Positions 24,060-53,620 of a stretch of 64,000 bases of DNA are shown here, piece after piece. The notes below the pieces were generated by a model, which saw nothing but the letters and a program-made list of their open reading frames with translations, did not search any database and was not told the origin of the DNA. The DNA is taken from contig NC_053042.1 of NCBI RefSeq assembly GCF_003473485.1, positions 5,355,501-5,419,500 of the forward strand, given 5' to 3'. How positions within the stretch are numbered: position 1 is the first letter of the stretch; every line of letters starts with the position of its first letter. The translations under genes were made by a program, and so were the position numbers. This stretch comes from Medicago truncatula (taxonomy: Eukaryota > Streptophyta > Magnoliopsida > Fabales > Fabaceae).

Positions 24060-24260
24060 CATAAATAATATAATAATATTTTTGACAAGAGAATATCAAG
24101 ATTAAAATAATAAGAATATCATAATTAAAAAAATATTTTAGATGTATAATATAGAATATAAATGGCCCATGCAGGTCTCGAACCAACTGACCTAATGGGC
24201 CATGTATTCCTTTATTATTATTTTCAATTACTTGTGTTTTTAAAATAATTTTAAATTTGA
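24060..24260 (-). repeat. Repeat unit carrying a truncated tRNA-Ile; partner at 45.93-46.16 kb
   Basis: On both sides of the tRNA remnant the minus-strand sequence aligns with the flanks of the tRNA-Ile at 45988. Upstream it shares ATTATTTTAAAAA and CAAGTAATTGAAAA; downstream it shares TAATTATGAT and ATTCTCTTGTCAAAAATATT. The two loci are therefore copies of one segment in opposite orientation, diverged by substitutions and small indels. Confidence 0.75.
24163..24201 (-). pseudogene. Truncated tRNA-Ile pseudogene (39 nt)
   Basis: The minus strand begins GGCCCATTAGGTCAGTTGGT and ends GAGACCTGCATGGGCCA. The acceptor stem and the ends of the D and T arms are present, but the whole anticodon arm is missing. 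Compared with the 74-nt copy, 35 nt are deleted between the GGTT of the D loop and the GGTT of the T arm, which suggests a microhomology deletion. It cannot be functional. Confidence 0.85.
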
Positions 24261-24374
24261 GATTTGTACTATTTTCATTAATTTAAATTTGAGATTTGTA
24301 CTATTTTCAATCAATTTTAAATGATCACACTTTGATTGATTTGATTTTGTCGGTACAATCAAACATTCATCTCA

Positions 24375-31962: not shown

Positions 31963-32161
31963 TTAAAAGCATAAGGAAAGACAAGTAACAAAGGACAAAA
32001 AAATAATCAAGATTTGTAGGAATCAAAAGAACAAATAATAAAAATGATGTACCTGTGCACCAATGGTCAGCGGCGGTAGCAACTGAAATGCAATAAATAT
32101 ATATAACTAGGTTTCTGCTGTTTTGGCGGGTTCCTGAAATAGAAAAAAAAGGTTTGGCGGG
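31963..32161. repeat. ~198-bp direct repeat, left copy (partner 35057-35254)
   Basis: Almost identical to 35057-35254, which lies just upstream of the minus-strand peptide gene start at 34943. This copy lies downstream of that gene and abuts the 2.97-kb duplicated unit. The pair looks like the junction of a former tandem array, not LTRs: the ends lack TG/CA and there is no primer-binding site or polypurine tract. Confidence 0.88.
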
Positions 32162-32203: not shown

Positions 32204-32485
32204 GTTAATAGGTTTTTACCCTATGTAATATAGGTCATTTTCAGTTTTCACCCCTGTAAAATTTTTATTTTGATTCACCCCCTGTAAAATATTTTTGTTT
32301 TGATTTATCCCCCTAATAGGCCAAACAAAAACGAAAATTTTTTGAAAAAAAAAAAATAATTGGTTTTTGTTTGGCCTATTAGGGGGGTAAATCAAAACAA
32401 AAATATTTTACAGGTGGTGAATCAAAATAAAAATTTTATAAGGGAAAAATCAGAAATGACCTATAATAGGGTAAAGACCTATTTG
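32204..32485. mobile_element. Palindromic MITE within the duplication
   Basis: The left half (AATAGGTTTTTACCCTATG, then AATAGGCCAAACAAAAACG) is inverted in the right half (TTTTTGTTTGGCCTATTAGG, then AGGGTAAAGACCTATT). It is present in both duplicate copies, so it predates the duplication. Confidence 0.75.
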
Positions 32486-33381
32486 CATGAAATGATCAAA
32501 ACTTGCATAAAAGATATTCTTCTTTCTTTTTGACAAAAAATTAAAACTACTTATAATTTGGGAGAAGAAATATCATAAAAATGATTAATTGTTTGTGGTT
32601 TGTGCTACTACTATTAAGGACAAAAATATTTAGGACAAAAAATGGGATAGTTACATTGGTGGTGATAACGATGATCCGACATTTAAAATAAATTCATCGG
32701 TAAACATTTTTTTATCGGAACTATAAAAGTGCAGTAAATGTTTGTATGGTAATTTGTAGTAATAACTTTTCACTTCAGCTAGATGAACATTGGAGGGAAT
32801 GATGCTAACAAAACAGTAAATTAATGCCTTAAACTTTAAGGAGTGTAAAAAAGAAGGATCAAAAGAAAAAAAGAAAGAAAAAAAAAATCATTGCTGAACT
32901 ACTAAAAACAGGACATTACATTACATACATTGGCCACTTTATAGGATGCGAAATAACAAATAATCTTGATGTTGATGACGTTGGTTTGAGATCTTGAAGT
33001 GTATTATTCTTAAGTCTCAAATTCGTGCCAAGTTAGGTGAGATAGTTTAACATTTAAAAAAAAAAAAAAAAGACAAATAATTAGTGGTACTATATTATTT
33101 TTCACAACCATAACACACATGAGAAACCATAGATTTCACAGCAAGATAACCATGAGATATTGTACAACAACCTATGCAAACTAAAGACAACACACGGTCT
33201 TCACTTTGAGCATGAGAAATGTCACCCAATAGACTCTTTTGAAGACTCTTTTTGACCCAACAACAATACATAAAGTGTTAAATAGTGTTCAAACTAATAG
33301 TGCTACTACATTAGTAGCATCATTACTACAATCTTTAGCATTGCTTCTAATAGCATTAAGAGAATTAAGAACAAGTTGTTC

Positions 33382-34943
33382 CTAATTATAATCGTCTTGT
33401 CCACGACTAGGAGGTGGAGGTTTTGGTATGTATGGATTAAGAGGAGTTCCATGTTCAATTGGTCCTGGATTCACATTCTTTGCACCAGAATCAGGCGATG
33501 GATCAATTGGACCGTAATCATCAAGACCTACATCAAGTTTTCTTTTGATACTATGGAAATTTTCCTAAAAATTCAAGGAATGGAACGCTTAAATGATACA
33601 ATTCGACCGCAAAAAATAAATAATGATTTAATCATCTAGTTTATGAAGTACTAACACGCACATGACACTGGAAATAATTTGTGAAATTAAATTAATAGAA
33701 TGTAACTACATGTGTTGCCATTGAATCCAAAGATGAAGAGTATGAATTTTGAAAAACAATCATACCTTCAGTTTCCTGCTTACTGCAATTGGTGTTGATT
33801 TATCACCACATCTTGTAGCAACAAAATCTGAGGTGACATCAATAAGTTATGCTGAATTGAATATATATATATATGCATGAAGGGTTCACATAAAATACTT
33901 AAACAATTTTTTAGGGAAATTAAAAAATTGGGTACACTCAATCACTCAAACAAATGATTTTTTTTAAGAGAAAATAATTTATGACGTGATTAATTTGTTT
34001 ATCATTTAATTTCTATCACTGTGTATCCAAATAATTTTATTTATGATGGTGTCCACGTAAGACTAGCTCGTCTCAACTATACTTGATGTGATAATCAACA
34101 CAATAATAGCACATGCCAACAATATGATGCAAGACATAAATAACCTTGACATCGTTGTCAAAGTTTTGGTAGAGACCATTTTTGAAATCTTGGCATGAAC
34201 CAACTATTTTTTAATATTTTTTTACTAATGAACTATCGTAGCTTCAACATGCAATATCGATGTTTATCATGTGCATATTTGTATTTGAGTTTGATAAAAT
34301 TTTAGTGGCCCCGGATTTTTTTTGAAGTTTCAAAGTGTTGTCAAAAACACATTGACATAAACTCAGTGTCAATCTAAACATACACTAAGTCTCTAAGAAA
34401 GCTTTAGGACCACAATTTCCATAGTGACCATGATTTCTTTAATATCACTAGGTTAACACAGCCGTTGTATGCACAAAACAATTTAAAACCATGGCACAAA
34501 ACCATGAAAAATTAATCAAGCTAAAAGGAATTAAACAATAGGTCGAAGAACTTTCCTTCAAAAAAAAAAAAATATATGGAAGAACTTGTTCAAAAAAACG
34601 ATAAATGGAAGAAAAAAAATAATATAAGAGATTGTGAATTGGAAGCTTTCATCACCAAATCACCAATGCATGCACTCTGCTCTTCTCACAGTCACAGATA
34701 ACATGAAAAGAAAAACCATATAAGCAAAAACAATGTTCAAAACATACAATCCTAATTTTTTAACCAAAAAGAACTTGTTCTTATAATAAAACAACAACAC
34801 ATTTTACAAAAAGTTCCATTATTGTAAGGGATACTAGAAGATTTACCTGGAAACCAAGGGGGAGCTGTGGTACTTTTGAAGCTAAAAAAGGTAAAAGCTG
34901 CCACAACCATCAAGAACAAAGTACAAAAGCCAGAAACCTTCAT
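33382..34943 (-). CDS. Small secreted Asp-Tyr/Pro-rich peptide precursor, copy 1
   Basis: Three minus-strand exons (34943-34847, 33827-33766, 33564-33382) with GT-AG borders give 113 residues. Residues 1-27 are a clear signal peptide (MKVSGF, then the hydrophobic core LFLMVVAAFTFFSF). Exon 2 is basic and ends SRKLK, a possible processing context. Exon 3 holds DDYGPIDPSPDSGAKN, then PGPIEHGTPLNPYIPKPPPP, and ends QDDYN. There is one Cys after the signal region (exon 2), so it is not a Cys-rich peptide. An acidic residue before Tyr and many prolines are features of post-translationally modified plant peptide hormones (PSY, RGF, CIF types), but I find no full match to those motifs. The function is unknown; an extracellular signal is an inference. 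Copy 2 at 51.1-52.7 kb differs by one residue. Confidence 0.78.
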
Positions 34944-35056
34944 GATGTCACTAAAACCTCAAAATGACCCTTCTTTCTAAACCCTAAACCAGAAAAAGAT
35001 AGTATTAAGATGTTGAAGAGAGGAGGAAGGTAACTGAAGGTATATTAGAAAGCATA

Positions 35057-35254
35057 TTAAAGGCATAAGGAAAGACAAGTAACAAAGGACAAAAAATAAT
35101 CAAGATTTGTAGGAATCAAAAGAACAAATAATAAAAATGATGTACCGGTGCACCAATGGTCAGCGGCGGTAGCAACTGAAATGCAATAAATATATATAAC
35201 TAGGTTTCTGCTGTTTTGGCGGGTTCCTGAAATAGAAAAAAAAGGTTTGGCGGG
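35057..35254. repeat. ~198-bp direct repeat, right copy (peptide gene upstream region)
   Basis: Starts 114 bp upstream of the copy 1 peptide ATG and therefore probably includes promoter or 5' leader. The first part (to 35144) is also in segmental copy 2 (to 52870). The partner is 31963-32161. Confidence 0.88.
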
Positions 35255-35278
35255 ATTTTGCAAAAAATAATAATAAAG

Positions 35279-35558
35279 ATTAATTAAGTTTTTAGTCCCT
35301 ATAAATATTTACATTTTTGTTTTTAGTCCCTACAAAATAAAATCGTAATTTTTAGTCCCTGTGACATTTTCCTTAAACATTTTAGGGACCAAAATTGTTG
35401 ATGAAAATTTTTTACAGGGATCAAAAATGCTGATGGACTTTAAAAAAAAAAGTGTTGATGGAAAATTTTATAAGGACTAAATAATGTGATTTTATTTTGT
35501 AGGGACTAAAAACAAAATTGTAAATATTTATAGAGATTAAAAACTTAATTAACCCTGA
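35279..35558. mobile_element. MITE with AAGTTTTTAGTCCCT termini
   Basis: The left end TTAATTAAGTTTTTAGTCCC and right end TTAAAAACTTAATTAA are inverted. Additional TTTTTAGTCCCTACAAAATA / TATTTTGTAGGGACTAAAAA segments lie inside. It is a common legume MITE type, non-coding. Confidence 0.8.
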
Positions 35559-36016
35559 TAATAAAAAAAGGAACATGTAGCATGTGCGAGAATCAAAGGT
35601 GCAGAAGCTGATATAAATGCTGAAAAGTTGTTCCAAAGTTCAATTTCACATCTTATTTTTAAAATCATTTTTGTTGGATTTCCTTCTTTACAAAAAAGTA
35701 ACTTATTTTATTAAGAGTTTTACTAAAATTATGTTTGGCTCCACTTCTCTTAGAAGTAAAAGATTAGTGAAAAATAAAGAGGACCAAACATACTATAAAT
35801 TCTATTTTTATATCCTTATTCAATGCCCTAAGTTAATGGTTAACTTATCGTAAAATTTAAAGCGGAAGGGTAGATCATAGAGGTTTTAGGAAAACACTAC
35901 CAAAAAAAGAAAGGATTTTGGAAAAATAAAGAAATAAAAAGATTGACGAGAACAGAAAAGGAAGCGAAATAGGATTAGAAGGAGAAGATTGCGATAATTT
36001 TGAAATCAAATCAACA

Positions 36017-36352
36017 ATGATAACTACTAAACACAGAATTTACGGCGATGAAACGAGGGTATTTGTTGATTCATTAGCGATCGGTTCAATTCAATTCCTA
36101 AAACCTGAATTGTGTGCTGCTGCTGTTGCGCTGCAATGGCATCATCATCATCATTGTCAGCGCCTAATGTGGTTTTGTTCGATGCTTTTTTCCGTCGTGC
36201 CGATTTGGATTGCGACGGTCGTATCAGCGGCGTCGAAGCCGTCTCCTTCTTCCAAGGTTCCGGTTTGCCCCAAAAAATCCTTGCTCAGGTCTCTCTCTCT
36301 CTCTCTCTTTCCTTACTTATCAATCTTAACTTCATTCATTCATTCACACTAG
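36017..36352 (+). other. Upstream ORF overlapping the EH gene start
   Basis: An ATG at 36017, 119 bp before the EH start codon, opens a 111-codon frame that overlaps exon 1 out of frame. If it lies in the leader it would reduce translation of the main frame. The transcript start is unknown. Confidence 0.3.
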
Positions 36353-39300
36353 TGTTGTAATGTAATATTAACAGTAGTAGTAGTTATAGACTTATTATTA
36401 GTATATAGCTGTTTGTCTAAATCAATCGCAAATCCAGATTTGGAAATTCGCAAACACAAATCAAAGTGGTTTCCTAGGTCGTGCAGAGTTCTACAATGCA
36501 CTTAAACTTGTCACAGTCGCACAGAGCAAGCGCGAACTCACTCCTGAATTAGTCAAGAATGCATTCTATGGTCCAGCCGCATCTATGATTCCTGCTCCTC
36601 AGATCAATTTCGCTGCCACTGTTACACCCCCCCGCCATTCGCACCCTTTGGACCACTTCCAAATCAAAACTACTTTCCTGCTGTTGCTGGACCTCACCCT
36701 GCAACTTCCTCTGCCTTCCCTGCTTATGGCAACATGATGGCTGGAGGACCTCTCCAACCACCGCACGTTGGAGGAACTCTTCCTACTGCTTCAACTCAGG
36801 AGGGGTTTGGTTTTGCAATTACATCATCTGCTTCAATTGTTGCACCCCCCACATGGCCTACACAATCAAAATATCCTACCTCTGTCAATGATGGTATTGT
36901 TGCTTCTGATTCATTTTTCAGAGGAGGGGATTTGTTCTCAACCACCTCATCTCAGCCCAACCAAGATTCTTCTCCACATGGATTTTCATCTGCCATTCTT
37001 CATGTATCTTGCTGGAACACCACCTCTGATTCTTTGCAGAGCTCACTTGCTACTCACTCTGTTCGTCCATATCTTCAGCAGAACCAGCATGCCTCCGTTC
37101 AGGCACCTAATATGCACAGTTCGCCTGGACTTCCAGTCAGATTGCAGGATTCTGCGTCAGGTCAGCCCCAACCTCCATGGCCAAGAATGACTCAGACTGA
37201 TAAACAGAAATATACGAATATATTCATGGAAGTAGACAAGGATAGAGATGGGAAAATCACAGGGGAACAGGCGAGGGACTTGTTTCTTAGTTGGGCACTA
37301 CCAAAAGGTATATTATCTACTTCATTTCCTTTTGTTTGGACCATGGTTAAATTTTTTTCTCTGTTTTTGTACTTTTCTAGTGTTCTGCTTGAACTTTCAA
37401 TGCCTAGCTAATTCGCTGATCATTTTTTGCATGCCATGTTTTATGTTTTCCAGATGTTTTGAAGCAGGTTTGCGACCTATCCGATCAAGATAATGATAGC
37501 ATGCTTTCTCTCAACGAGTTTTGTATTGCACTGCACCTAATGGAGCGACACAGGGAAGGACATGCTCTTCCAGCTGTACTTCCGAATAACATTCTTCTTG
37601 ATTTACCGACTAGTGGTCAACCTGCCAATCTCCTTAGTCCTGTAACTTGGGGAAATCAGTCAGGTTTGTACCGAAGAACTACCATGCTTTTTTGGGTTAT
37701 TATGGAAACTATTTTGTTCTATAATTTCTTATCTCTTCCTCCTTTTATCTTCGAAAGGTGTTCAACAACAGCAAATGATGACTGGATCTGGGGCTCAACA
37801 TCTCAACCCTACTGCAGGTTGGCCACCAAGGCCGGCTGCTGTCCCTCCATCTGATGAAGGACCTCAGAGCAAGCAGCAGAAATCCAAAATTCCAGTCTTG
37901 GAGAAGCATCTCACAAATCAACTGAGTTCAGATGAGCAAAATTCAATTAACTTGAAGTTTCAAGAAGCTACAGAAGCCAATAAGATGGTAACTACTGTAT
38001 ATTTATTTCTTTGCGGCATTATGTTGTGCCTTAAATATGCCACATTCAATCACTTAATTTTTTTTATTATTGGGGTACATTAGAAGGTTCTAGCACCTTT
38101 GTTGAGGATTGAACCTCCCTCTGACACAATCACCGTACTCAATCTTAAAAGACTTAGGATAGTGACAATCAAGCTATAACCCAACAGTACCACCTCAATG
38201 GATGGCATGTTTATTTGTTCATCTTTTTCCGCTAACATAGCTGCTGGTTTTTGTTTTATTCTGACTGTAAAGCTCACATATTTGCATGTGTTTCCTAAAC
38301 GGTTTGCTTATCTATTGGCTAACTGCGAAACACTACTTTGATTGGTTTGAAGTTTCATAGTAAGCAACTCTTTTTGGGGTCATATATGCCATATACATAC
38401 TGTGTATGGTCATCTTTTAAAGTTGATTAGTTTGAGGATATGGTGGAACATCAGTGTAAGTATGCTTTCTTTGCTTCATACCTTTGTACAGTGTATCTTG
38501 ATTTGCAGGCTGGACTTTTGTGAACCCAAGCTGGACTCTTGTGTATTTATACAATAGAATCTAGGATACCTAGAAGAGAAAAACCCATAAAAGCTGCCTT
38601 TCTTGCGCTGCATATGGTTAAAAATGTCATGTCAACACTCCTTTCTTTTATTTTCCCCTTTTTTAAACAAATTTTTCGTTTTTCTGCCTGCAAAAGGTTA
38701 AATACAATAGCAGATGCGACAATCGTCTTAACGAGACCACAGAAAGGATATCTGCGGATAAACATGAGGTATTATTCTTTAGCATTGCATTTATCTTTAT
38801 TAGACCTATAAGGTTAACTTTTATAATTGGCTCAATATATGAATTTCAGGTAGAGATTCTAGCAAAGAAATATGAAGATAAATATAAGCAAGTTGGAGAT
38901 GTATCATCCAAGTTGACAACCGAAGAAGCCACATTCTGTGACATACAGGTCCAATAAAACATGGCTTATTTCTTAACTCATAGAATATATGCTGACACGT
39001 TGTTTTGTTGTCGCATTTTGCATCGCTATATCACATTATTTTATTGTATGTATAGGGAAAAAAATTTGAATTATATCAATGGATTGTCAAGTTGGAACAG
39101 GATGTAAATACTGATGACACAGTACAGGTGTGTTTGAATATGATATGTTCTGCACATCCATCATGATTTCTTTTTCCATATCTGATCTTGTCAAATACAA
39201 TTTTCAGGTCCGTGCTGATCGAATCAATTTTGTCCTTGATGAACTGGTGAAGTCTCTAAATGAACAGTGCAAGAAGTATGGATTGCGTGCAAAACTCACG

Positions 39301-40485
39301 ACATTATTGGAGCTACCCTTCGGTAATTTCAAATTTATAGTTGTTGCTATATCCTTTCAAGCGTTTTCTATTTACTATTCCTTTCAAGTGTTATCAAGTC
39401 TTTTCATGTCTTCAACTTTATTATATGATATTTTTTGCATTAGTGTTGTTGATATTTAGTTTGAGGAAGTAGCCTTCAATTGCTGAACTACTGGTTTTGT
39501 ATCAGCATGAAAACTTTTTGAGCCTGCACAACTTGATATTAGTTTCCTGATCAAGTGGCATGGCATTTAACACACGCAGTTTAATGATTTTCTTATGTGA
39601 CCTTTGAACTACTTTGCGGCACAATTCTGTATGGAAAGGCTCTATATAATCTTATATAACTATTGTTGCTGCTTATCACAAATGTTTTCTCATGGCATTA
39701 TTTTTTAAGGAGTCCATTTAAAGCAAAATATGATAATGGATTGCGATTGACACTAAATTAGCTATACGGTTCTTCGTAATAGGGACTACTATAATTGTTA
39801 TCAAATGTTGTATTAGTGATTTGGTTGTATGAAAAGATATGAAACTGGCCGATGTTTCTGAGAATAGTGTACAAGATACACTACATATTTGATCCAAATA
39901 AAAATCCTTTTGTTGCATTTGACATTTTACTACTTTTATTTTAATTAAGCTCAGAAAACTCTTCCTTGCCTACAAATTGACTCTCCTTTTTTGTTAAATG
40001 GATCTGCTTTATTGTTTTTCACATGCTAGGTTCATTGTTGGCCTCTTGATTCAGTTATCACCTTCTCTTATTTTGCTTGTTTTAGTTGTGTTATGCCATT
40101 TCTCTTTGCTTTGTTGTACCCTGCTCACCAGTCTCACGAGTCATGTGCTCCCCTCCAATATATTTTATATTTTAATAATGTAGTCGTTACATCATTACAT
40201 ATATATATATTCTTTTATTATATGGCCTCACTCAAATTAATCCTTTAGGCTGGCAACCTGGTATCCAAGAAGGAGCTGCTGATTGGGATGAGGATTGGGA
40301 TGAGCTTGAAGATAAAGGTACTAATTAGATCTGATATTCTATCAATTACTAAAAACAAAAAACAAATGATGTGCAAATTGTGTGGTATCTGCCATAAATT
40401 TTGAGGATTTTTTGCAAAAGGTTACGAAACCACATTGACATACATGGACGCTTGGATAATTATCATTTTATTTGGGCGATTAGTT

Positions 40486-40795
40486 GATATATGACTCTCA
40501 TATTGGATGTCGTAGCACCTATAGTAGAAAAGATGGTGGAAACTGAGCTTAGGTGGTTTGGGCATGCAGAGAGAAGACCTGTAGATGCTTTAGTAAGGAG
40601 AGTAGATCAGATGGAGGATATTCAGATCACTAGAGGCAGAAGTAGACCTAGAAAAACTATAAGAGAAAGATCTAGAGATTAATGAGTTGGATCGAAATGT
40701 GATTTATTATAGAACATTATGGCGTAATTTGATCCATGTAGCCAACCTCACTTAGTGAGATAAGGCTCGGTTGTTGTTGTTGTTGTTGTTGCATT
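40486..40795 (+). mobile_element. RTE-type LINE 3' fragment in an EH-gene intron
   Basis: The translation contains LRWFGHAERRPVDALVRRVD and TRGRSRPRKTIRE, the conserved C-terminal tail of plant RTE-clade LINEs. It is followed by ACCTCACTTAGTGAGATAAG and a (GTT)n tail at 40770-40790. It is heavily 5'-truncated. No clear TSD found. Confidence 0.85.
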
Positions 40796-41570
40796 TTTGG
40801 TTTCGATAAGAATATTCTATCACTACTCTTATAATTTAGGCAGCACGGTTTATCGTAAAACAAAGCTCGTTTGTGAAGCATTAAAGTGTGCATTATTTTC
40901 TTCTTTTGTTTTGTCTTTTTGTTTAGTTCGCTTGGTATATTTTTATTTTTCCTAGCTGTATTTACCCCTCTCTATTAGGATTGAATGCGTATGTACATGT
41001 GATGCACAATTTAAGGCTTTGTCAATTTTCACCTGTACCCCAAGATTAGGAAATAGAATTAACTCTAAAAGAGAAACTAGAAAAGAAAGAATCTCGCAGG
41101 GAAACTGAAAAATGTGTGTTAACAGGATTATGGAAGGTTAACTGAAACGTTATCCTACCCATCCCTCCTTGAAAAATCTCACAAAAAGAGCTTTCACTGA
41201 AACTTTCATGTTCTGTATCTCCAGATACACCCTTTTAACTTAACGGTTGAATCAGAGCCCTCATAAGAGCTCTGATATCATAAACAGATGATTCATAGAA
41301 CGTTTTTGTAAATTTGATGTACAAAGCCTTCTATATTTAGGACGCATTTATGATCTCAAATGAGATTTCAAATCCCCCCTTAATTGATGACAATAATTGA
41401 CATATACAAATAAGGAAACAATTGCGGATACATATCTCTTCAGATCAGAGAAGAAATTGCAACATCGAGGGAATACTGAATTTCAAGCCATGTCTGCCTA
41501 CTCACGACACATGCATTTTATCAGCTGAAAATGATAATAACAGAAGACTAAGCAAACTGGTCAATCCGAT

Positions 41571-41591
41571 CACACACACACACACACACAC
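41571..41591. repeat. (CA)n microsatellite
   Basis: About ten CA units in the intron between 40317 and 42080. Confidence 0.85.
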
Positions 41592-44500
41592 CTCATGATA
41601 TTAGTAAAAATATAATTAATGGATGAGCCAATGAAGAAATAGTATACTCAGTTGAATATTGCAATTGGGAGCTGCATCAGTAGAACATGAAGAAGCTGGC
41701 CAGTCTTATCTTTAAGGATATCATTATTCTTATCTATATGCTCAGTTCCTAGCTTTTCTCACTTACCCTGCCTGCATATACACCTCTCTTGCATCTGTAG
41801 TTCTGTATTTCTTTTACACACCCCGTTGCTAGCTGATGAACTATACTTCTTTGTGCTATAGTATGTATTCATTTTCTAAGCTTACTTGTTTGTCTAATTT
41901 AAGAGTTTGATCATTTTGAATAGTTTAGGAGAAATGATATTATATGATATTGGTGAGATTAAAATAATGGGTAACTGTAATTTCTTTATTTTTTGGTCTC
42001 TATCCGTTCTCTTTTGGAGAATGTTGGAAATATATGCATAATTTCTTGGTTATTTACCATGCTTTCTTTCTTCTAGCAGAATTTGCTCTTGTCAAAGAAT
42101 ACACTCTTGATGTGCAAAACACCATAGCGCATCCAAACCAAAAGCAACCAAAGGCTGTGAGCACAAAAGCTTTGGATATTAACAGTCCAAAATTTGTAGT
42201 GTCGCCTAAGAGTGATGATAAGTCAGAAAAACCTCAGACTACAAATGAACAGGGAGTAGGTAATGGATCTGTTTTTGATAAAAGCAATGATGGGTCTGAA
42301 AAAAGTGCTCCTAATAGTCCATTTGCAAGCAGTACTATCGGAAGGCCACATAGGGACTTTGTTGATTCTGACATTCGAAAGACTTCTGGTGAAAATAGCT
42401 CACCCCGTAATCAAAATGACACGCAAGAAACCCAAAGGTATAGATTTTAAGATTCACACACTAGTTTTCCTAATCATGGTCAAGTTTTGCTCATTTGGAT
42501 TTTACCGATCATCTATATTCTCTGTGCCTTTTTGAAGTTTGTGGTGATCATAATGATTGTCATTGTATAAAATGGTGATTATTTGTATTGGAAATGGATC
42601 CCCTCCTGCCTTTTATTATCCTGCGAAGTCTCCTTTGCAATTATGTGCCGTTGGATTAATCCAATGGTTTAGTGATAAAAAGAGAAAAATGTCATAATAA
42701 GAGGAGAGAGAAAAGTATCTAAAGTTCACTTTCTTCATTTTCGTGGGTTTTCTTCTTCGCATGTTGTTGTTCTCTTGAGTGTTTTACAATACAAAAATGG
42801 TGATTTCAGTCACCCAAAATAGAAATAAATCGAATCAATCTTTACCACTGTCAGACAAAACTGAGAAACAACATCTGGTTATAGGAAAAGAACAAGAGAG
42901 GAGAAACAAGCTGGAAATACCTAGAAAACTTAAATAGCCACAAAGTATATTGTGAACTGGTTATAGTATGCGTTAAAAACTCTTTGACGGATTAGAAAAT
43001 AGTGTTAGATTAGATTGATGTGACTTTTACAAGCATGTGCATGATATAGAGTTGAGGTTTGGTTGTTATTGTTATGCATGATTGGAAAGGTTATTTATTT
43101 GTTGTTTTGGTTCACGGTTACCAACATATGCTTCATTTTTTTTTTGGGGTATTAGATAGATCTTGTGATCTTGTAAAATAATTGTTTGGTATATAATCTT
43201 GCATATGCAGCGATCATGGTGGTGAGAAGTCTGTGTTTTCTGAAGAACGAGTTTTTGATGAACCTAATTGGGGAACCTTCGACACAAATGATGATATCGA
43301 TTCAGTTTGGGGATTCAATGCCAGTAGCAAAGAGGTACGCAAGCTCTTGCGTGTAAAGTATTTTTTCAGTAAAATCCTTTCTTTTGAAGGACACATATCT
43401 ATTTGAATTTCTCCTGCTATATTCACTTGTCAGCACCATTGTTGGTGGTTTAATTACTGCATTTCTCCTGCTTTATTGTAACTTGATAGATATATTATTG
43501 TAATATTTTGGAAACACTAACCTGATAGTAGTTTAGCACACCACTGACCACACCTATGTATACCAGTGGTCTAGGAATAGTCGCCAAACTAGTACCATTA
43601 CTCAATATGATAAGACCCCTAACAGAAAAATTATAATATGATATTCTAACCTTCTCCTCAAATTGAAGAATTACCAAGGTCTCAGCTTGTTAAAAAGTTT
43701 TGTCAAGAAAAAGCTAGTTACGAATAAACCCACACGACAACAAAAAAAGCACAATTTAAAAACTTAGTAACTTTAAGATAACAAAAAATACAATTTTAAT
43801 AGCCTTCCCAAAAAAGGGCTCTCAAATAATGTTTGAAAAAAAGAGCACTGTTAGAGCCAACACTGTGTCGGATGGTTGGGATAATTCACATGTAGAGGAG
43901 TTAGTCAAAGCATTCATAGCTATGGGCAAAAAGACAATGTTGGACTGATGCTTACCAGGAATAGGTCACCGATCAGATCTGTCAGCACCAGGGTTGTCTT
44001 ATCTAGTTGATTCATACACTCGTATGAGTTGAAGACTCTAGTTATCAAGTTGGGTTAACTCACGGGTTAGAGGGACGATTGAGCAAGTCTACAACAAATC
44101 AACTATTTTTGCAAAAATGCCTAAAATGACAGTGGTGCCGTGTTTTTCCCCCCTTTCAATTCCACATATGCAGCTGATATCCCAATACGAGCTAATCTGC
44201 AAAGGAGGTGATCGATGTTGTATTGAGTCTCAACTCGTTTTGTAAGGTTCAAGAGACCTCGACAGTTACACGATACTTATGACTGATACGAGTTCATGGT
44301 TATTTGGTTTTTAAGAATTAATAGCTTTTATAAGATTTTATGATTGTGCCTGGTATCAAAGGGTTAGATGTCATTCTCTTATTTATTTTTATTTTTTTGG
44401 TAGATAGATGTCATTCTCTTATACTCTTAGCAGTATACTGATTGCTTTTGGAAATTTGTTTATACTTTTTATAGGAGAGAGAGCTGGATGGAGCTGGAGA

Positions 44501-44999
44501 CAACTATTTCTTTAGTTCTGGAGACCTGGGCCTCAACCGCATTAAAACATCTTCACCACAGGCTGGTGATCTCTTCCTGAAGACCAGTGGATGATTCTGT
44601 TCCAAGAACCCCACTTTTCAGCTCAAGCAGCTCCCCGCAAAGGCCTAAAGACTGGTTGGAAAACACTTTTGACTTTTCAAGATTTGATTCATTTAGCACA
44701 CACGATAGCGTATCTTTACCTGCTCGGGAAGCACAACCACCAGTAAGATTTGATTATGTCCGCAGCAGTGCGGGTTTTGATCATGGTTTTCCTGCTTTTG
44801 ATGACTTGGATCCCTTTGGCTCTGGGCCTTTTAGGACTTCATCAGAAAGTCAAACTCCTAGAAAAGGATATGATAATTGGAGTGCTTTTTAGTTTTGTAA
44901 CTAACATCTCTGTTGAGATTAGGTGTAGTTGGTTAGAAATTTGATGTAAATACTTGGTGTGACTAGTTATATATAAATTCTATTTCGCTATATCAATTT

Positions 45000-45925
45000 C
45001 TATTCTCACAATACTTTGTCGATTTGGAATTCAAAATTGATCTTTTGGTTAGGGAGTGCTAGACATAGACTTGTTATTCAAAGGACATGGAATAAGGGTA
45101 TTTGTAGATGTTAGTTGTGAGATATCAAGTTAGGTGTACAATCGCGCGCACACACACACACAACATTGGAACATATTGTTATTCTATCACCTAACTGATC
45201 GAGACATCATAAGTGAGAGGATATAATAGATTTCTCATTATCTACAAGATATCGACATGTCCGAAAGACGATACGTGAAGGCATAATTGAGATATGCGGA
45301 GTTATAATCGATCAAGGAATGAAATTAGAGGACTAACTAACAAAGCTTAACCCCATCACAACTTTACATCCAATAGTCTTATCCCCTATTATAATTTGTC
45401 AATCAACCAACCATATTCAAATAGTTGAATGTTTGTTGTACCATTCTCTATGGATCAATAATTATAAATAGTTTGATACTATAAATCGCATTTATCGTGC
45501 AACTTTCCAGCTTTCTCTCTTCTACCTTTTTTGTTTGACGCGTTTTTGAGCCTCTTCTCCCCTTTCTTTTTTGTCTCTTTGATAATTTTCTCGGGGAAAT
45601 TGTGTCCCTTCAAGGAAATAGTTGTTCCTTTAGTTTAAGAATGGTCCTAGTATTCCATTTGAATGATCATAATACCATTGCCTCTTTGATTTAAGAGTGA
45701 CCATAATATCATATTGCAGTGGTTCTAGTATCATATTAGTGTGATCATGACATCATACAAGAGTAGTCTTATTCTCATATTGAAAGATCTTAACATCATA
45801 TTTGAAGTTGTATTTTAGAACGAATCATGTAGTGCAATAGGACTTCGATACAATTATAGTTGTGTCGTTTTATCCCGAAGACGTTGTGGTTAACAATTTG
45901 CTTGCATAATTATGGATAGTATAAA
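45000..45925. other. Intergenic, with imperfect short repeats
   Basis: Downstream of the EH locus. It contains a (CA)n tract at about 45148-45161. The stretch 45630-45800 repeats words such as GTATCATATT and TGATCAT at irregular spacing, probably an old decayed repeat. No gene seen. Confidence 0.45.
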
Positions 45926-45929
45926 TATC

Positions 45930-46160
45930 AAATTAATAAAATTATTTTAAAAAGACAAGTAATTGAAAACAATAAATAAGCTAACATGGCCCATTAACTT
46001 AGTGGGTTAGAGCGTCGTGCTAATAACGCGAAGGTTGCAGGTTCGAGACCTGCATGGGCCATTTATTTTCAATATTTTACAGCTAAAATATTATTTTAAC
46101 TATTATGATTCAAATTTTAATTATGATGATATTCTCTTGTCAAAAATATTATACATTTCT
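45930..46160 (+). repeat. Repeat unit carrying tRNA-Ile; partner at 24.06-24.26 kb
   Basis: Both flanks of the tRNA-Ile here are homologous to the flanks of the truncated tRNA-Ile at 24163-24201 (opposite strand). The conserved segment is thus larger than the tRNA itself. Confidence 0.75.
45988..46061 (+). tRNA. tRNA-Ile (anticodon AAU), degenerate D arm
   Basis: 74 nt. The acceptor stem GGCCCAT/ATGGGCC, anticodon arm TCGTG-CTAATAA-CGCGA (anticodon AAT) and T arm GCAGGTTCGAGACCTGC are intact. The D arm reads AACTTAGTGGGTTAGAGC where the usual plant sequence is AGCTCAGTTGGTTAGAGC. This breaks one D-stem pair and alters the A box. The following T stretch is short (ATTTATTTTC). It could be a functional variant or an early pseudogene. 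Confidence 0.75.
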
Positions 46161-46207
46161 AGGCATATAAGCCTCGAAAATATAAATAAAGAGAAGATTA
46201 TCAAGCC

Positions 46208-46322
46208 AATCAACACTTCTCTTAGTGGTGGAAGCTCCATTCTCTAAGGCATACTTGCTGAAATTAGCAAGCTAATCAACACTTCTCTGAGTGGTGGAAG
46301 CTCCATTCTCTAAGGCATACTT
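46208..46322 (-). repeat. 66-bp tandem duplication with an in-frame peptide repeat
   Basis: Two units with period 66 bp. On the minus strand both read KYALENGASTT(Q/K)RSVD. The second continues WLDNL, the other hits a stop. A period divisible by three, with the same frame preserved in both units, suggests former coding sequence. I do not recognise the motif. It lies just downstream of the broken peptide gene. Confidence 0.7.
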
Positions 46323-47084
46323 CAATTGATATTAAAAATGAAAAAATTGTTCAATTGGTCCTGCATGAGCATTCTTTGCATCACCTAATGATGGATCAAT
46401 TGGATTGTAACCTTAACGATGTTGAATTGGTCCTGAATGAGTTTTCCCAACACCTGGTGCATGTTCATCTGAACTGTAATCATCAAGATTTACGCGATTT
46501 ATAATACTATGACCATTTTCCTGAAAATTCAATGAAAGGAACCCTTAAAAATACACAATTTCACATTTTTTTTTACTTGGTCATCTAGTTTATGAAGCAC
46601 TAACATGACACTAGTAATAATTTATAAAAGTGAAATAATATAATGTAACTGCATGTGTTGGTATTGATTCAAGAGCGGAAGAGAATGAATTTTAAAAAAC
46701 ATTCATACCTTCAATTTCCTGCTTTCTGCAATTGGTGTTGTTGTACCAGCCAAATCTGATCAGTTAGCAACAAAAAAGTGTGTTTAGTTGAATATATACT
46801 TGAAAGGTTCATATAAAATACTTGTATGATTTCAAAAAACTCAAGTTTTGAGGGAAATTATCAAGTCTCGACTATGCTTGATGTTAGAATCAACTCATAA
46901 CTATGTTTTCAAATGAAATTGCAGAAAATTGCAATCCAATATGATACAACTGCAATTACAGCTGTAACAATATGATGCAGCAAGGACCATAAAAATCTTC
47001 ACATTGTTGTCAAAATTATAATAGAGAAGCCTTTTTCATAATCTTGTTATGAACCAAGGATTAAGTGTAGTTGCTACATCACAT

Positions 47085-47186
47085 CAAGGTTCGTTAATGT
47101 TTCACATCGGTTAAGAGATGACCTGAATAAATGTTTATAAACGAGGGCAATCTTTACCCTGTAAAGTGATTTTGTTGGGTTGTATC
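47085..47186. mobile_element. TRIM/LTR-like repeat fragment
   Basis: ACATCGGTTAAGAGATGACC, then TGTTTATAAACGAGGGCAAT and TTTTGTTGGGTT. This text is widespread in plant short LTR-type repeats. Fragment only. Confidence 0.5.
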
Positions 47187-47467
47187 TGTTGAAATATAAT
47201 TCTAACTCTTGTATATGTTTTTGATCTGTAATATGTTAGTTAGTTAAGCAACTACTTGTAACTGCTTCTCCTAGTTTCTAGCAAGTTAGTTAGATCTAAG
47301 GCATTACTTGTTTCGCAAGCAATAGAGAAAACAAGTTGTATATATACTTTATTCAATGTGAATAAAGCCTATGCCTCATTCTATTACTTCTAATCTCTTT
47401 CTCTCATATTCAATCTGTTATCCTTCTCTCTCAATTACACAAACAAAGATCAATTTGTTCACCAACA
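47187..47467. mobile_element. Copia-like solo LTR
   Basis: 281 bp starting TGTTGAAATATAATTC and ending TTCACCAACA (TG...CA). It has a TATA-like TTGTATATATAC and AATAAAG near the middle. The 5-bp flanks GTATC / GTATT (47182-47186, 47468-47472) are a one-mismatch TSD. No internal retroelement region remains. Confidence 0.75.
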
Positions 47468-47769
47468 GTATTTAACCTAACCATGTTTGAATAGACAGGA
47501 ACAAAAAAGGAATTAATGCATGTAAGAAAAAACATCCAATGCTATTTTTTTAGCAAAAAAAAAAAAGGTTCTTATAATAACACAACAACACATTTTACAA
47601 AAAAAAAAAAAAAAATCATCATTGCAAGATATTTTCTACCAATAAATAATAGAGGGGTAGAAGATTTACCTGGAAATTTAGAGGCGTCTGTGGTATTTAA
47701 GAAGCTAAAAAACATAAAAAGTTGTCACAACCATCAAGAACAAAGCACAAGAAGCCTTCATGGTGTTGG

Positions 47770-48740
47770 AACTCAAATGAACCACCTAATAAAAAGGTAG
47801 GTAGGTTATTTGAGTCTCTTGTTGCCGGTTCTCGAACCGAGTTCCTCAAAGTTGAAGAGAGAAACTCTCAACCAAGTGACTTCTCGGGAGACAAGTAGTT
47901 TATTTGAGTCTAACTACATTTGGAAGCTCTGAGCCCTTATAAAGAAAATACCAGATGATAGTTTACTAAATCTTCTAGGATGAAGAATTAGTTATGCTAT
48001 TTTAGGAAAAGGGACACAGACATAGGTTTGTGGATGGCCTGAAAGTATGACCGAACTGGCTGGTCAAATATAAATATGACCTTTTCTCTGCTTATTTTGA
48101 CAAAACATCATGCTATATACTCCACGGTAAAGATTTAATTTGGAAAATGCATATCACCCCTAAGATCAGATGCATCACAAACTTGTGTCCTTGTTGGGCA
48201 AAACTAAACATGTCAGAGAAATAGCAAAGTTAGTCATGTTATTTAAGAAAAACAGGGTAACCACCTATGTTGGGAGATTAAGAATGTAAGTTGAATGTGA
48301 TCAATTATTTTTATTAATAATATGTGTAATTTGGCCAAATTATGTTTATATTTTATTTTAAAGTGTTAGTTTTGGTTTTCCAAACTTTTGTATTTGAATT
48401 TTCAAATTTTATTTTAAAAGAGAATATCGAAGTTGGTTACTAGGTTGAGTTACAATCAGGTCGTTCTCTTTAAAACGTTTTGTGGCACTGTCCAAATTTG
48501 TACAATACAGACTATCAATCACGCCGCCTCCAAGATGAAACAAGTTCAGCTACAACTATGCAATTAAATACTACAATGTAGAAATAAGAACAAGAATGGG
48601 GAGAAGGAGAGGAAGAGAGAGAAGAATTATATTATTATCTTATGATCTCATCATATTAGGTTACATGTGAACTCTATTTATACATAAAACAATGACTTGA
48701 AAAACCAGCATCAATGATTTGAGGAACAAACATAATAGTA
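47770..48740. other. Intergenic, no gene seen
   Basis: AT-rich. The segment 48530-48690 resembles the end of a retroelement but cannot be assigned. Confidence 0.4.
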
Positions 48741-48890
48741 TACTTCCTCTGGTCACATTTATAAGCAAAAAATGTCTTTTTAGATACATTGAATAATTAA
48801 TGTATCCATTCACATTTATATATTAGATATATTAATTATTCAATGTTCCTAAAAAGTCATTTTTTTTAATAAATATGACCGAAGGGAGTA
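48741..48890. mobile_element. Stowaway-like MITE
   Basis: TACTTCCTCTGGTCACATTT and its inverse (AAATATGACCGAAGGGAGTA) close a ~150-bp element with an internal ATTGAATAATTAATGT / ATATTAATTATTCAAT palindrome. TA flanks both ends. Confidence 0.82.
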
Positions 48891-48899
48891 TATGATCTA

Positions 48900-49110
48900 G
48901 GGCTCGTTTGGATTAGCTTATTTTAGAGCTTATATAAAATAACTTATGCAAATAAATACATTTTTATGTATTATTTATAAGTTTTTAAGGTAGTTTATGA
49001 AAAAATGGGTTATGAAAATACAATTTTCGTTAATCAGAACTTATAGATTAAAATAAAAGCTTATTTATTTACATAAGCTATTTTTCATAAGCTCAAACCA
49101 AACGGGGTCT
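48900..49110. mobile_element. Harbinger/Tourist-like MITE
   Basis: The left end GGGCTCGTTTGGATTAGCTT and right end AAGCTCAAACCAAACGGGGTC are inverted repeats of a Tourist/Harbinger type, about 211 bp. It directly adjoins the Stowaway element. Confidence 0.7.
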
Positions 49111-49539
49111 TAGTAGTATGCTTTTATAATATTTATAACAAAATCTTTATTGTTTGCCTTCATAACATTATCAATGTGGTGCGACTAAAATTCAAATTCA
49201 TTTAGTGTACTCCCATTCCCATTCTCTCTAATTATAAAATCATTTTCAAACTTTTCTTTGTCCCTTAATATATAAGACAACTTAGTGGGGAGAACTACTT
49301 CCCGAACCTCAACATGCATTCTTCCACGGAGATAGAGGTGAGTCTCTGCGACATCCACCGCCATAATCACATTTTTTAAAACACATAATATTAATTTTAC
49401 CATTGAAATCAACATGATCAATTATATTTTTAAAAATCGTATGCAAATTCTAAACGACTATTATTTTGAGATGGACAAAGTTAATATTTCCCTAATATTT
49501 TTTTCTCTTGTACCATTTTTAGAGAGTTATGACATTTAG

Positions 49540-49950
49540 TTCGTGCTTGGGTTGGTGTTTATAGGATTGACCCGTTTAGCATTGATGACCATTTCCTTTA
49601 ATTTACTTATTCATCAGGGGGTTCGATCACCAGAAGATCTTTTATGCAATTCATTTGGCTCGTTTGTTTTTGAGTTTTATGGAACGAACGTAATAATAGG
49701 CTATTTAACAAGGAAACTCATATGTGTAACATGTTGGAAAAAGTTAAAAGCCACTCATATTAGTGGATGAAGGCAACAAATGTTTAATGTTTTAGATGTT
49801 CACAGTTGGTTGGTATGTCCGCTCGATTGTTTGGGTATTGGCTAACCATGTCGGTTTTCTGTTTGAAATATGTTTGTGAACTATAGTCGTCTCTTTGGCA
49901 TGTCTTGTGCTGAGGAGGTAACCTTGTTTGGTGTTAATATATGTTTGGGT
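49540..49950 (+). mobile_element. L1-type LINE 3' fragment at the duplication border
   Basis: Translated pieces: LWNERNNRLFNKET, MLEKVKSHSY, DVHSWLVCPLDCLGIG. They match the minus-strand LINE fragment at 1.44-1.77 kb. The tail (TGAGGAGGTAACCTTG onwards) is shared with the left end of segmental copy 1 at 32166, where the rest of the LINE is absent. Confidence 0.7.
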
Positions 49951-50213
49951 TAATAGGTCTTTACCCTCTGTAATATAGGTCATTTCCGATTGTCACCCCT
50001 GTAAAATATTTTTGTTTTGATTTATCCCCCTTAATAGGCCAAACAAAAACGAAAATTTCTTGAAAAAAAAAATAAATTGGTTTTTGTTTGGCCTATTAGG
50101 GGGGTAAATCAAAACAAAAATATTTTACAGGTGGTGAATCAAAATAAAAAATTTATAAGGGGAAAATCAGAAATGACCTATATTATAGGGTAAAGACCTA
50201 TTTGCATGAAATG
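49948..50213. mobile_element. Palindromic MITE within the duplication (copy 2)
   Basis: Same element as 32204-32485, with a slightly shorter centre. Confidence 0.75.
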
Positions 50214-51098
50214 ATCAAAACTTGCATAAAAGATATTCTTCTTTCTTTTTGACAAAAAAAATTAAAACTACTTATAATTTGGGAGAAGAAATATCATAAA
50301 AATGATTAATTGTTTGTGTTTTGCGCTACTACTATTAAGGACAAAAATATTTAGGACAAAAAATGGGATAGTTACATTGGTGGTGATAACGATGATCCGA
50401 CATTTAAAATAAATTCATCGGTAAACATTTTTTTTATCGGAACTATAAAAGTGCAGTAAATGTTTGTATGGTAATTTGTAGTAATAACTTTTCACTTCAG
50501 CTAGATGAACATTGGAGGGAATGATGCCAACAAAACAGTAAATTAATGCCTTAAACTTTAAGGAGTGTAAAAAAGAAGGATCAAAAGAAAAAAAGAAAGA
50601 AAAAAAAAATCATTGCTAAACTAAAACAGGACATTACATTACATACATTGGCCACTTTATAGGATGCGAAATAACAAATAATTTTGATGTTGATGACGTT
50701 GGTTTGAGATCTTGAAGTGTATTATTCTTAAGTCTCAAATTCGTGCCAAGTTAGGTGAGATAGTTTAACATTTAAAAAAAAAAAAAAAGACAAATAATTA
50801 GTGGTACTATATTATTTTTCACAACCATAACACACATGAGAAACCATAGATTACACAGCAAGATAACCATGAGATATTGTACAACAACCTATACAAACTA
50901 AAGACAACACACGGTCTTCACTTTGAGCATGAGAAATGTCACCCAATAGACTCTTTTGAAGACTCTTTTTGACCCAACAACAATACATAAAGTGTTAAAT
51001 AGTGTTCAAACTAATAGTGCTACTACATTAGTAGCATCATTATTACAATCTTTAGCATTGCTTCTAGTAGCATTAAGAGAATTAAGAACAAGTTGTTC

Positions 51099-51571
51099 CT
51101 AATTATAATCGTCTTGTCCACGACTAGGAGGTGGAGGTTTTGGTATGTATGGATTAAGAGGAGTTCCATGTTCAATTGGTCCTGGATTCACATTCTTTGC
51201 ACCAGAATCAGGCGATGGATCAATTGGACTGTAATCATCAAGACCTACATCAAGTTTTCTTTTGATACTATGGAAATTTTCCTGAAAATTCAAGGAATGG
51301 AACGCTTAAATGATACAATTCGACTGCAAAAAATAAATAATGATTTAATCATCTAGTTTATGAAGTACTAACATGCATATGACACTGGAAATAATTTGTG
51401 AAATTAAATTAATAGAATGTAACTACATGTGTTGCCATTGAATCCAAAGATGAAGAGTATGAATTTTGAAAAACAATCATACCTTCAGTTTCCTGCTTAC
51501 TGCAATTGGTGTTGATTTATCACCACATCTTGTAGCAACAAAATCTGAGGTGACATCAATAAGTTATGCTG

Positions 51572-51622
<51 letters not shown>

Positions 51623-52669
51623 TGAAGGGTTCACATAAAATACTTAAACAATTTTTTAGGGAAATTAAAAAATTGGGTACACTCAATCACTCAAACAAAT
51701 GATTTTTTTTAAGAGAAAATAATTTATGACGTGATTAATTTGTTTATCATTTAATTTCTATCACTGTGTATCCAAATAATTTTATTTATGATAGTATCCA
51801 CGTAAGACTAGCTCGTCTCAACTATACTTGATGTGATAATCAACACAATAATAGCACATGCCAACAATATGATGCAAGACATAAATAACCTTGACATCGT
51901 TGTCAAAGTTTTGGTAGAGACCATTTTTGAAATCTTGGCATGAACCAACTATTTTTTAATATTTTTTTACTAATGAACTATCGTAGCTTCAACATGCAAT
52001 ATCGATGTTTATCATGTGCATATTTGTATATTTGTATTTGAGTTTGATAAAATTTTAGTGGCCCCGGATTTTTTTTGAAGTTTCAAAGTGTTGTCAAAAA
52101 CACATTGACATAAACTCAGTGTCAATCTAAACATACACTAAGTCTCTAAGATAGCTTTAGGACCACAATTTCCATGGTGACCATGATTTCTTTAATATCA
52201 CTAGGTTAACACAGCCGTTGTATGCACAAAACAATTTAAAACCATGGCACAAAACCATGAAAAATTAATCAAGCTAAAAGGAATTAAACAATAGGTCGAA
52301 GAACTTTCCTTAAAAAAAAAAAAAAAATAGATGGAAGAAAAAAAATAATCTAAGAGATTGTGAATTGGAAGCTTTCATCACCAAATCACCAATGCATGCA
52401 CTCTGCTCTTCTCACAATCACAGATAACATGAAAAGAAAAACCATATAAGCAAAAACAATGTTCAAAACATACAATCCTAATTTTTTAACCAAAAAGAAC
52501 TTGTTCTTATAATAAAACAACAACACATTTTACAAAAAGTTCCATTATTGTAAGGGATACTAGAAGATTTACCTGGAAACCAAGGGGGAGCTGTGGTACT
52601 TTTGAAGCTAAAAAAGGTAAAAGCTGCCACAACCATCAAGAACAAAGTACAAAAGCCAGAAACCTTCAT
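51099..52669 (-). CDS. Small secreted Asp-Tyr/Pro-rich peptide precursor, copy 2
   Basis: Three exons (52669-52573, 51544-51483, 51281-51099), 113 residues, GT-AG borders, all intact. The signal peptide and exon 2 are identical to copy 1. The only residue change is Gly to Ser directly after the Asp-Asp-Tyr (DDYSPIDPSP here, DDYGPIDPSP in copy 1; codon 51228-51230). The rest of exon 3 (SGAKNVNPGPIEHG, PYIPKPPPPSRG, QDDYN end) is the same. An extracellular signalling role is inferred from the signal peptide, small size and acidic-Tyr/Pro motif. I do not recognise a named family. Confidence 0.78.
51577..51620. repeat. (TA)n microsatellite in intron 1 of peptide gene copy 2
   Basis: About 21 TA units where copy 1 has about six (33861-33873). 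It is the largest length difference between the two duplicates. Confidence 0.92.
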
Positions 52670-52870
52670 GATGTCACTAAAACCTCAAAATGACCCTTCT
52701 TTCTAAACCCTAAACCAGAAAAAGATAGTATTAAGATGTTGAAGAGAGGAGGAAGGTAACTGAAGGTATATTAGAAAGCATATTAAAGGCATAAGGAAAG
52801 ACAAGTAACAAAGGACAAAAAATAATCAAGATTTGTAGGAATCAAAAGAACAAATAATAAAAATGATGTA

Positions 52871-53620
52871 TCCGGTCCGTTCACTGCTAAAAACCGCCAA
52901 GTAAAAACCGCCAAGTAAATGAACCGGTCAAAAACCGGCCTAAAACCGGCGGTTTAGTCGGTTTTATGGGTTGAACCGTATCTTAATTTTTGTAGAGAAA
53001 ATAAGGGAAGAAATCGGTGTAGAAGGAATCAGGAAAGATGCTAGATTTCATATTCTTCCATCTCAGTTTTAATATAGCAGAGAAATGAAAATATAAAGTA
53101 GAAGCATTGTTATTTGGGCTTGTGCTGGCAGAAGCTAGAACCAAGATGCAGTACACAATGAGACAACAGATAGGCAGCCGCACAAACTATAATGAGAATA
53201 TGGAATTAGGGTTATGTATTAGTATGAATAAGAGGGATTTGGGCTTGGAGCATATTGACCCGTTATATTTTTCTAATATAGGCTTGGAGCATAGTTTTTT
53301 TTATCTTTTTTCTTTTTAAAGAGCTAATAAGAATATAATAATTTACATTCATTAATTTATATATAATTATTAATAAGTATCTTTATACACTTATTTTTAT
53401 AATTTTACTTATTAAATAATCTATTAAATTTGAGTGATGTTTAAATTTTAGTAGTATAAAATACGAAATTATTTAATTTTTGTGTAAAATAGTTTGATAT
53501 ATAAAAATAAAAAAAACATGTATTTAATTATTACCGGTTGAACCCCGGTCCGACCTCTAAACCTTGAACCCATAAGTTCACCGGTTCAATGTCCGATTCG
53601 GTTTTGATTACCTTGGTTTT
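52871..53620. mobile_element. CCGGTT-rich repeat element with inverted end motifs
   Basis: The left part has AACCGCCAAGTAAAAACCGCC, AACCGGTCAAAAACCGGCC and GGGTTGAACCG. The right part has the complementary ACCGGTTGAACC, GGTCCGACC and CACCGGTTC. Between them is AT-rich non-coding DNA. It resembles plant elements with CGGTT-rich termini, but I cannot name the family. Its left end coincides with the breakpoint of segmental copy 2. Confidence 0.5.

Follow-up and report, generated by a model that had tools for sequence, protein, structure and literature searches.

The stretch of DNA analyzed here, 64,000 nucleotides of contig NC_053042.1 (positions 5,355,501 to 5,419,500 of the forward strand), is called the window, and all positions refer to it unless another contig is named. 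It contains two nearly identical genes for small secreted precursors, A and B, and a decayed third copy, C, between them. A and B are very probably co-orthologues of Arabidopsis TWISTED SEED1 (TWS1) that arose by a recent duplication; TWS1 encodes a peptide hormone of the CIF family. Both were modelled with three exons from the sequence, and both were recovered as whole-genome matches of TWS1:

34943-34847, 33827-33766, 33564-33382 (overall 33382..34943), minus strand: gene A, TWS1-type precursor with Gly71
52669-52573, 51544-51483, 51281-51099 (overall 51099..52669), minus strand: gene B, TWS1-type precursor with Ser71

GT-AG borders were found in all four introns of A and B, each coding sequence comprises 342 nt for 113 amino acids plus the stop codon, and the splicing as modelled appears supported by sequence and homology. 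The coding sequences differ in 1 of these 342 nt (33513 in A, 51230 in B), which exchanges Gly71 of A for a Ser residue in B, directly after Asp-Asp-Tyr. The N-terminal hydrophobic stretch of the precursor is strong by simple hydropathy, with a 15-residue Kyte-Doolittle mean of 2.44 from residue 6. An earlier reading of this locus (the original prediction) had described two intact three-exon genes for 113-residue precursors with a strong signal peptide and a single Gly/Ser difference after Asp-Asp-Tyr, and this description held. SRKLK, residues 49-53 at the end of exon 2, is part of the basic middle region of the precursor and may be a putative SBT6.1 (S1P) site, since it is compatible with the R-X-L-X form of such sites. 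Both precursors end in PIEHGTPLNPYIPKPPPPSRGQDDYN.

Arabidopsis TWS1 (AT5G01075) has 81 amino acids and the peptide DYNFPVDPTPTTKASIKPGPIEH (PMC11534595, Table 1). Its mapped cuts lie between MKVGLE and DYNFPV, made by SBT1.8, and between PGPIEH and GTPLNP, made by ALE1 and SBT1.8; the specificity of the N-terminal cut needs tyrosine sulfation (PMC13082318). The published stretch reads MKVGLE, DYNFPVDPTPTTKASIKPGPIEH, GTPLNP (PMC11534595, PMC13082318), and protein A of the window reads LDVGLD, DYGPIDPSPDSGAKNVNPGPIEH, GTPLNP. The context of the N-terminal cut is alike, with VGL and an acidic residue before DYG in A and before DYN in AtTWS1, the core between the two sites is 23 residues long in both, and around the C-terminal cut all 12 residues of PGPIEH and GTPLNP are identical to AtTWS1 in A as well as in B. 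Both are also small secreted precursors with a C-terminal extension. In the window precursors, residues 69-91 span DY to PIEH, from which the mature peptides can be predicted, with the coordinates taken from the exon 3 model and the assignment from homology to TWS1 DYNFPVDPTPTTKASIKPGPIEH:

33451..33519, minus strand: predicted mature peptide of A, 23 residues (69-91, DY...PIEH)
51168..51236, minus strand: predicted mature peptide of B, 23 residues (69-91)

The mature peptide would end at His91 by this homology, so that the Pro-rich tail (PYIPKPPPP) and the final DDYN, both past the predicted His91-Gly92 cut, are probably absent from it; the original prediction had not placed the C-terminal cut. 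A secreted peptide of the tyrosine-sulfated kind that starts with DY had been proposed for the locus, and homology to TWS1 supports this well. The proposed start near DDY could be placed at DY69, which matches the TWS1 cut, and sulfation of the tyrosine and hydroxylation of prolines are plausible by analogy.

Local alignment of the window protein with Arabidopsis TWS1 scored 117, whereas none of 5000 shuffled versions of that protein exceeded 50. When the 23-residue core was aligned alone (2000 shuffles, with DY kept fixed), the z value was 7.9 for TWS1, 4.9 for CIF4, 4.2 for CIF3, 1.95 for CIF2, 0.75 for CIF1, 0.47 for PSY1, and −0.18 for RGF1. These values bear on the question of whether A and B may instead belong to PSY or RGF/GLV, the other sulfated peptides with a DY start, with which they have the Asp-Tyr start and prolines in common. 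The alignment to PSY1 and RGF1, one member per family, is nevertheless at the shuffle level, and residue 8 of the peptide is Ser here but Asn in the description of PSY (PMC9369194), so that membership in one of these families is very improbable. RGF/GLV was also rejected by its core, given as mostly 13 residues ending in Asn (PMC11534595), since the predicted core here ends in IEH. The CIF1/CIF2 subtype was rejected because its PPFKLIPN ending without an extension is not that of the C terminus of A and B.

The genome searched comprises 429.9 Mb in 42 contigs, and the match counts of the protein searches are lower bounds. A 35-residue stretch of Arabidopsis TWS1 gave at least two matches at E ≤ 10, gene B (E 4.7e-7) and gene A (E 7.3e-7), with 67% identity. 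With the full window protein, at least six matches were obtained at E ≤ 0.001. All of these overlap exons of A or B, two also cover intron sequence, and none is in copy C. The codon pattern for GPIEHGTP occurred twice in 430 Mb, at A and at B, with no occurrence of the reversed control. Together, the TWS1 stretch and the codon-pattern searches found no TWS1 locus in this genome better than A and B. The codon pattern for PPFKLIPN, the ending of CIF1/2, occurred once genome-wide, on another contig, again with no occurrence of the reversed control:

L009 (contig C8), 1498-1626, minus strand: CIF1/2-type open frame ending in DYGRYDPSPTFSKPPFKLIPN, found by the PPFKLIPN codon pattern

This separate single match indicates that, as in Arabidopsis, the TWS1 type and the CIF1/2 type are encoded by different genes in this genome. 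A DYxFxVDP-type pattern was also tried; it had one genome match, compared to two for the reversed control, and was taken as chance. The 60-residue product of exon 3 was searched against prokaryote and viral contigs, with 63 and 4 pattern stretches, respectively, none of which was confirmed; this is expected for a plant gene, and these collections are unable to reveal plant orthologues of A and B.

An undescribed family of secreted DDY/Pro-rich peptides, as the original prediction had considered possible, would agree with the domain and structure searches: a Pfam-A scan of the precursor returned no family at E ≤ 10, and a search of PDB sequences returned only two weak, unrelated matches with E 0.23 and 0.32. 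The family looked new because neither search names TWS1. The mature peptide and both mapped protease sites match published TWS1 directly, and the whole-genome matches are A and B themselves, which argues against a new family to such an extent that it can hardly be upheld. The match is to a known peptide hormone and not to the end of a known non-peptide protein. A and B are further members of an already described family and not a new kind of peptide, so the supposed new family can be removed from the list, and A and B are likely the TWS1 genes of this plant.

In the passages of the literature collection that were searched, occurrences of the string GPIEH were those of Arabidopsis TWS1, and PIDPSPDSG, a string from the window peptides, did not occur in that collection. 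Among the literature matches listed, the names MtTWS1, GmTWS1, and LjCIF did not occur, and the occurrences of GmCIF, MtCIF, and LjTWS appeared from their titles to be unrelated; the main paper on GmCIF deals with invertase inhibitors. A soybean xylem-sap paper terms GmXAP3 CIF1/2-like, and the word TWS is absent from its main text. The part of a family survey that covers the species counts two CIF homologues, which may be A and B (PMC11855783).

Other members of the family are less close. CIF3 and CIF4 have in common with the window peptides the DYG start, a proline pair (TP/SP), a C-terminal His, and a C-terminal extension, and CIF4 is cut at His-Gly (PMC13082318), but their alignment is weaker than that of TWS1 and they are without PIEHGTPLNP. 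CIF1, CIF2, and the C8 frame likewise start with DYG, and the C8 peptide and the window peptides both contain DPSP, but the former end in PPFKLIPN without a C-terminal extension. In Pogostemon cablin, TWS genes are also multi-copy, and 12 family precursors are 84-118 amino acids long (PMC11855783), so that a precursor of 113 amino acids is not unusual.

Some points weigh against the assignment to TWS1 or set A and B apart from AtTWS1. The ungapped identity of the core to TWS1 is only 8 of 23 residues, and the stretch from DY to GPIEH, the divergent centre of the peptide, is only loosely alike. The precursor has 113 residues compared to 81 in AtTWS1, with DY at residue 69 compared to 32; this gives a longer middle part, which here contains the basic stretch with SRKLK. 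An Asp residue stands before DY here and a Glu residue in AtTWS1, and two copies are present here. The comparison is based on the Arabidopsis peptide stretches as printed in two reviews. Finally, the exon difference of 1 in 342 nt is not significantly below the rate of the surrounding noncoding DNA (binomial P = 0.13, Fisher P = 0.14), so that the close similarity of A and B alone is no evidence of constraint; purifying selection on the exons had been expected, but no significant signal of it was seen.

This noncoding rate was obtained from the duplicated segments that carry the two genes, which pair with each other in a self-BLAST of the window. The same comparison revealed a stray copy that adjoins the A segment on its 3' side:

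32275..35149, unstranded: duplicated segment carrying A, pairing with 49993-52876
49993..52876, unstranded: duplicated segment carrying B, pairing with 32275-35149
31963..32161, unstranded: stray direct copy of the upstream region of A (35057-35254), 98.5% over 199 bp

Between the A and B segments, 26 of 2484 aligned noncoding sites are different (1.05%, gap columns left out), and the duplication would be very recent by this divergence. Assuming about 1e-8 substitutions per site and year, the duplication or conversion dates roughly to half a million years ago. The similarity upstream of the ATG ends after about 206 bp, so the distal promoters of A and B differ. The stray copy may be what is left of another tandem copy. 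Self-complementary stretches lie at the borders of the A segment or close to them, at 32207-32483 (86%) and 35280-35552 (77%); these may be hairpin-type elements resembling miniature inverted-repeat transposable elements that aided the duplication. Tandem CIF genes with diverging expression have been reported in Liriodendron chinense (PMC13074997), so that pairs such as A and B are not unique to this plant.

Copy C, the decayed paralogue between A and B, had escaped the original prediction. It consists of parts that resemble the three exons:

47761 to ~46347, minus strand: copy C, with exon 1-, 2-, and 3-like parts
from 47761, minus strand: exon 1-like part, in which a frameshift causes an early stop
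~46741-46709, minus strand: exon 2-like part, by sequence match
from 46520, minus strand: exon 3-like part, two peptide modules with an in-frame stop between them
46484-46416 and 46412-46347, minus strand: the peptide modules DDYSSDEHAPGVGKTHSGPIQHR and GYNPIDPSLGDAKNAHAGPIEQ of the exon 3-like part

The two modules are related at the DNA level, with a score of 49 that none of 5000 shuffles reached (maximum 32), and SRKLK was kept. Copy C is most plausibly a pseudogene in which a module was duplicated internally; its frameshift might instead be an assembly error. A gene for tRNA-Ile (aat) at 45987-46062 on the plus strand adjoins the 3' end of copy C, and its surroundings (45916-46152) match 24073-24272 in inverted orientation, in two blocks.

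The fate of copy C leads to another explanation for the pair, in which A and B are derived from TWS1 but at least one of them is a non-functional fresh duplicate bound for the same decay; this is compatible with the assignment to TWS1 for the other copy. The very recent duplication with no demonstrable exon constraint, the decay of the neighbouring copy, and the short upstream region common to B and A would agree with such an event. Nevertheless, neither gene has lost its reading frame, a splice site, or a cleavage motif despite the 26 noncoding substitutions and the indels, and a dead copy among the two is possible but doubtful.

If A and B are TWS1 genes, their expression, the modification, processing, and perception of the peptide, and the barrier that it serves may be proposed by analogy. 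Once in the secretory pathway, the precursor would be sulfated at Tyr70, within Asp-Asp-Tyr, by a tyrosylprotein sulfotransferase, and its prolines might be hydroxylated. Two cuts would follow in the apoplast, one between Asp68 and Asp69 by an SBT1.8-like subtilase and one between His91 and Gly92 by an ALE1- or SBT1.8-like subtilase. The resulting 23-residue peptide may activate GSO1/GSO2-type receptor kinases and SERK co-receptors, and would thereby signal that an apoplastic barrier, most likely the cuticle of the embryo, is incomplete. Among solved structures, the CIF2 peptide as a query matched one chain, 6s6q_C, which is CIF2 and presumably part of a receptor complex. In Arabidopsis, TWS1 helps to check the sealing of the waxy surface of the embryo and is perceived by GSO1/GSO2 and SERK (reviews, including PMC11534595 and PMC13082318). 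The A/B locus would allow a test of this embryo-endosperm cuticle checkpoint in a probable legume.

The Gly/Ser difference next to the key tyrosine, on which weight had been laid, is probably minor because the position after DY is variable among CIF peptides: CIF1-4 have Gly there and TWS1 has Asn (PMC11534595), and the C8 frame also has Gly. A Ser residue at position 71 is thus likely tolerated, and a single difference in 342 nt provides no statistical case for selection at this residue. Since A and B differ in a single residue next to the presumably sulfated tyrosine and also in their upstream DNA, they offer a natural comparison. With copy C as a past two-module precursor, the locus might even be a birth-and-death nursery of TWS1 peptides, in which A and B with their different distal promoters are split by tissue or by receptor strength, but this is unlikely. 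Copy C also suggests how repeated peptide modules can arise in this family.

Between A and C, an open frame at 36734-37411 and further plus-strand frames up to 44892 are possibly one multi-exon gene; the first of them gave an EF-hand-like match of 20.4 bits, short of the Pfam cutoff of 25.4 bits, and an EH-domain protein would be a guess. A QWRF family gene (PF04484, E 3.2e-39) was found at 15330-13885 on the minus strand. At 7430-9818 on the plus strand, an RVT_1 reverse transcriptase domain extends over two open frames, which indicates a broken retroelement, probably LINE-like.

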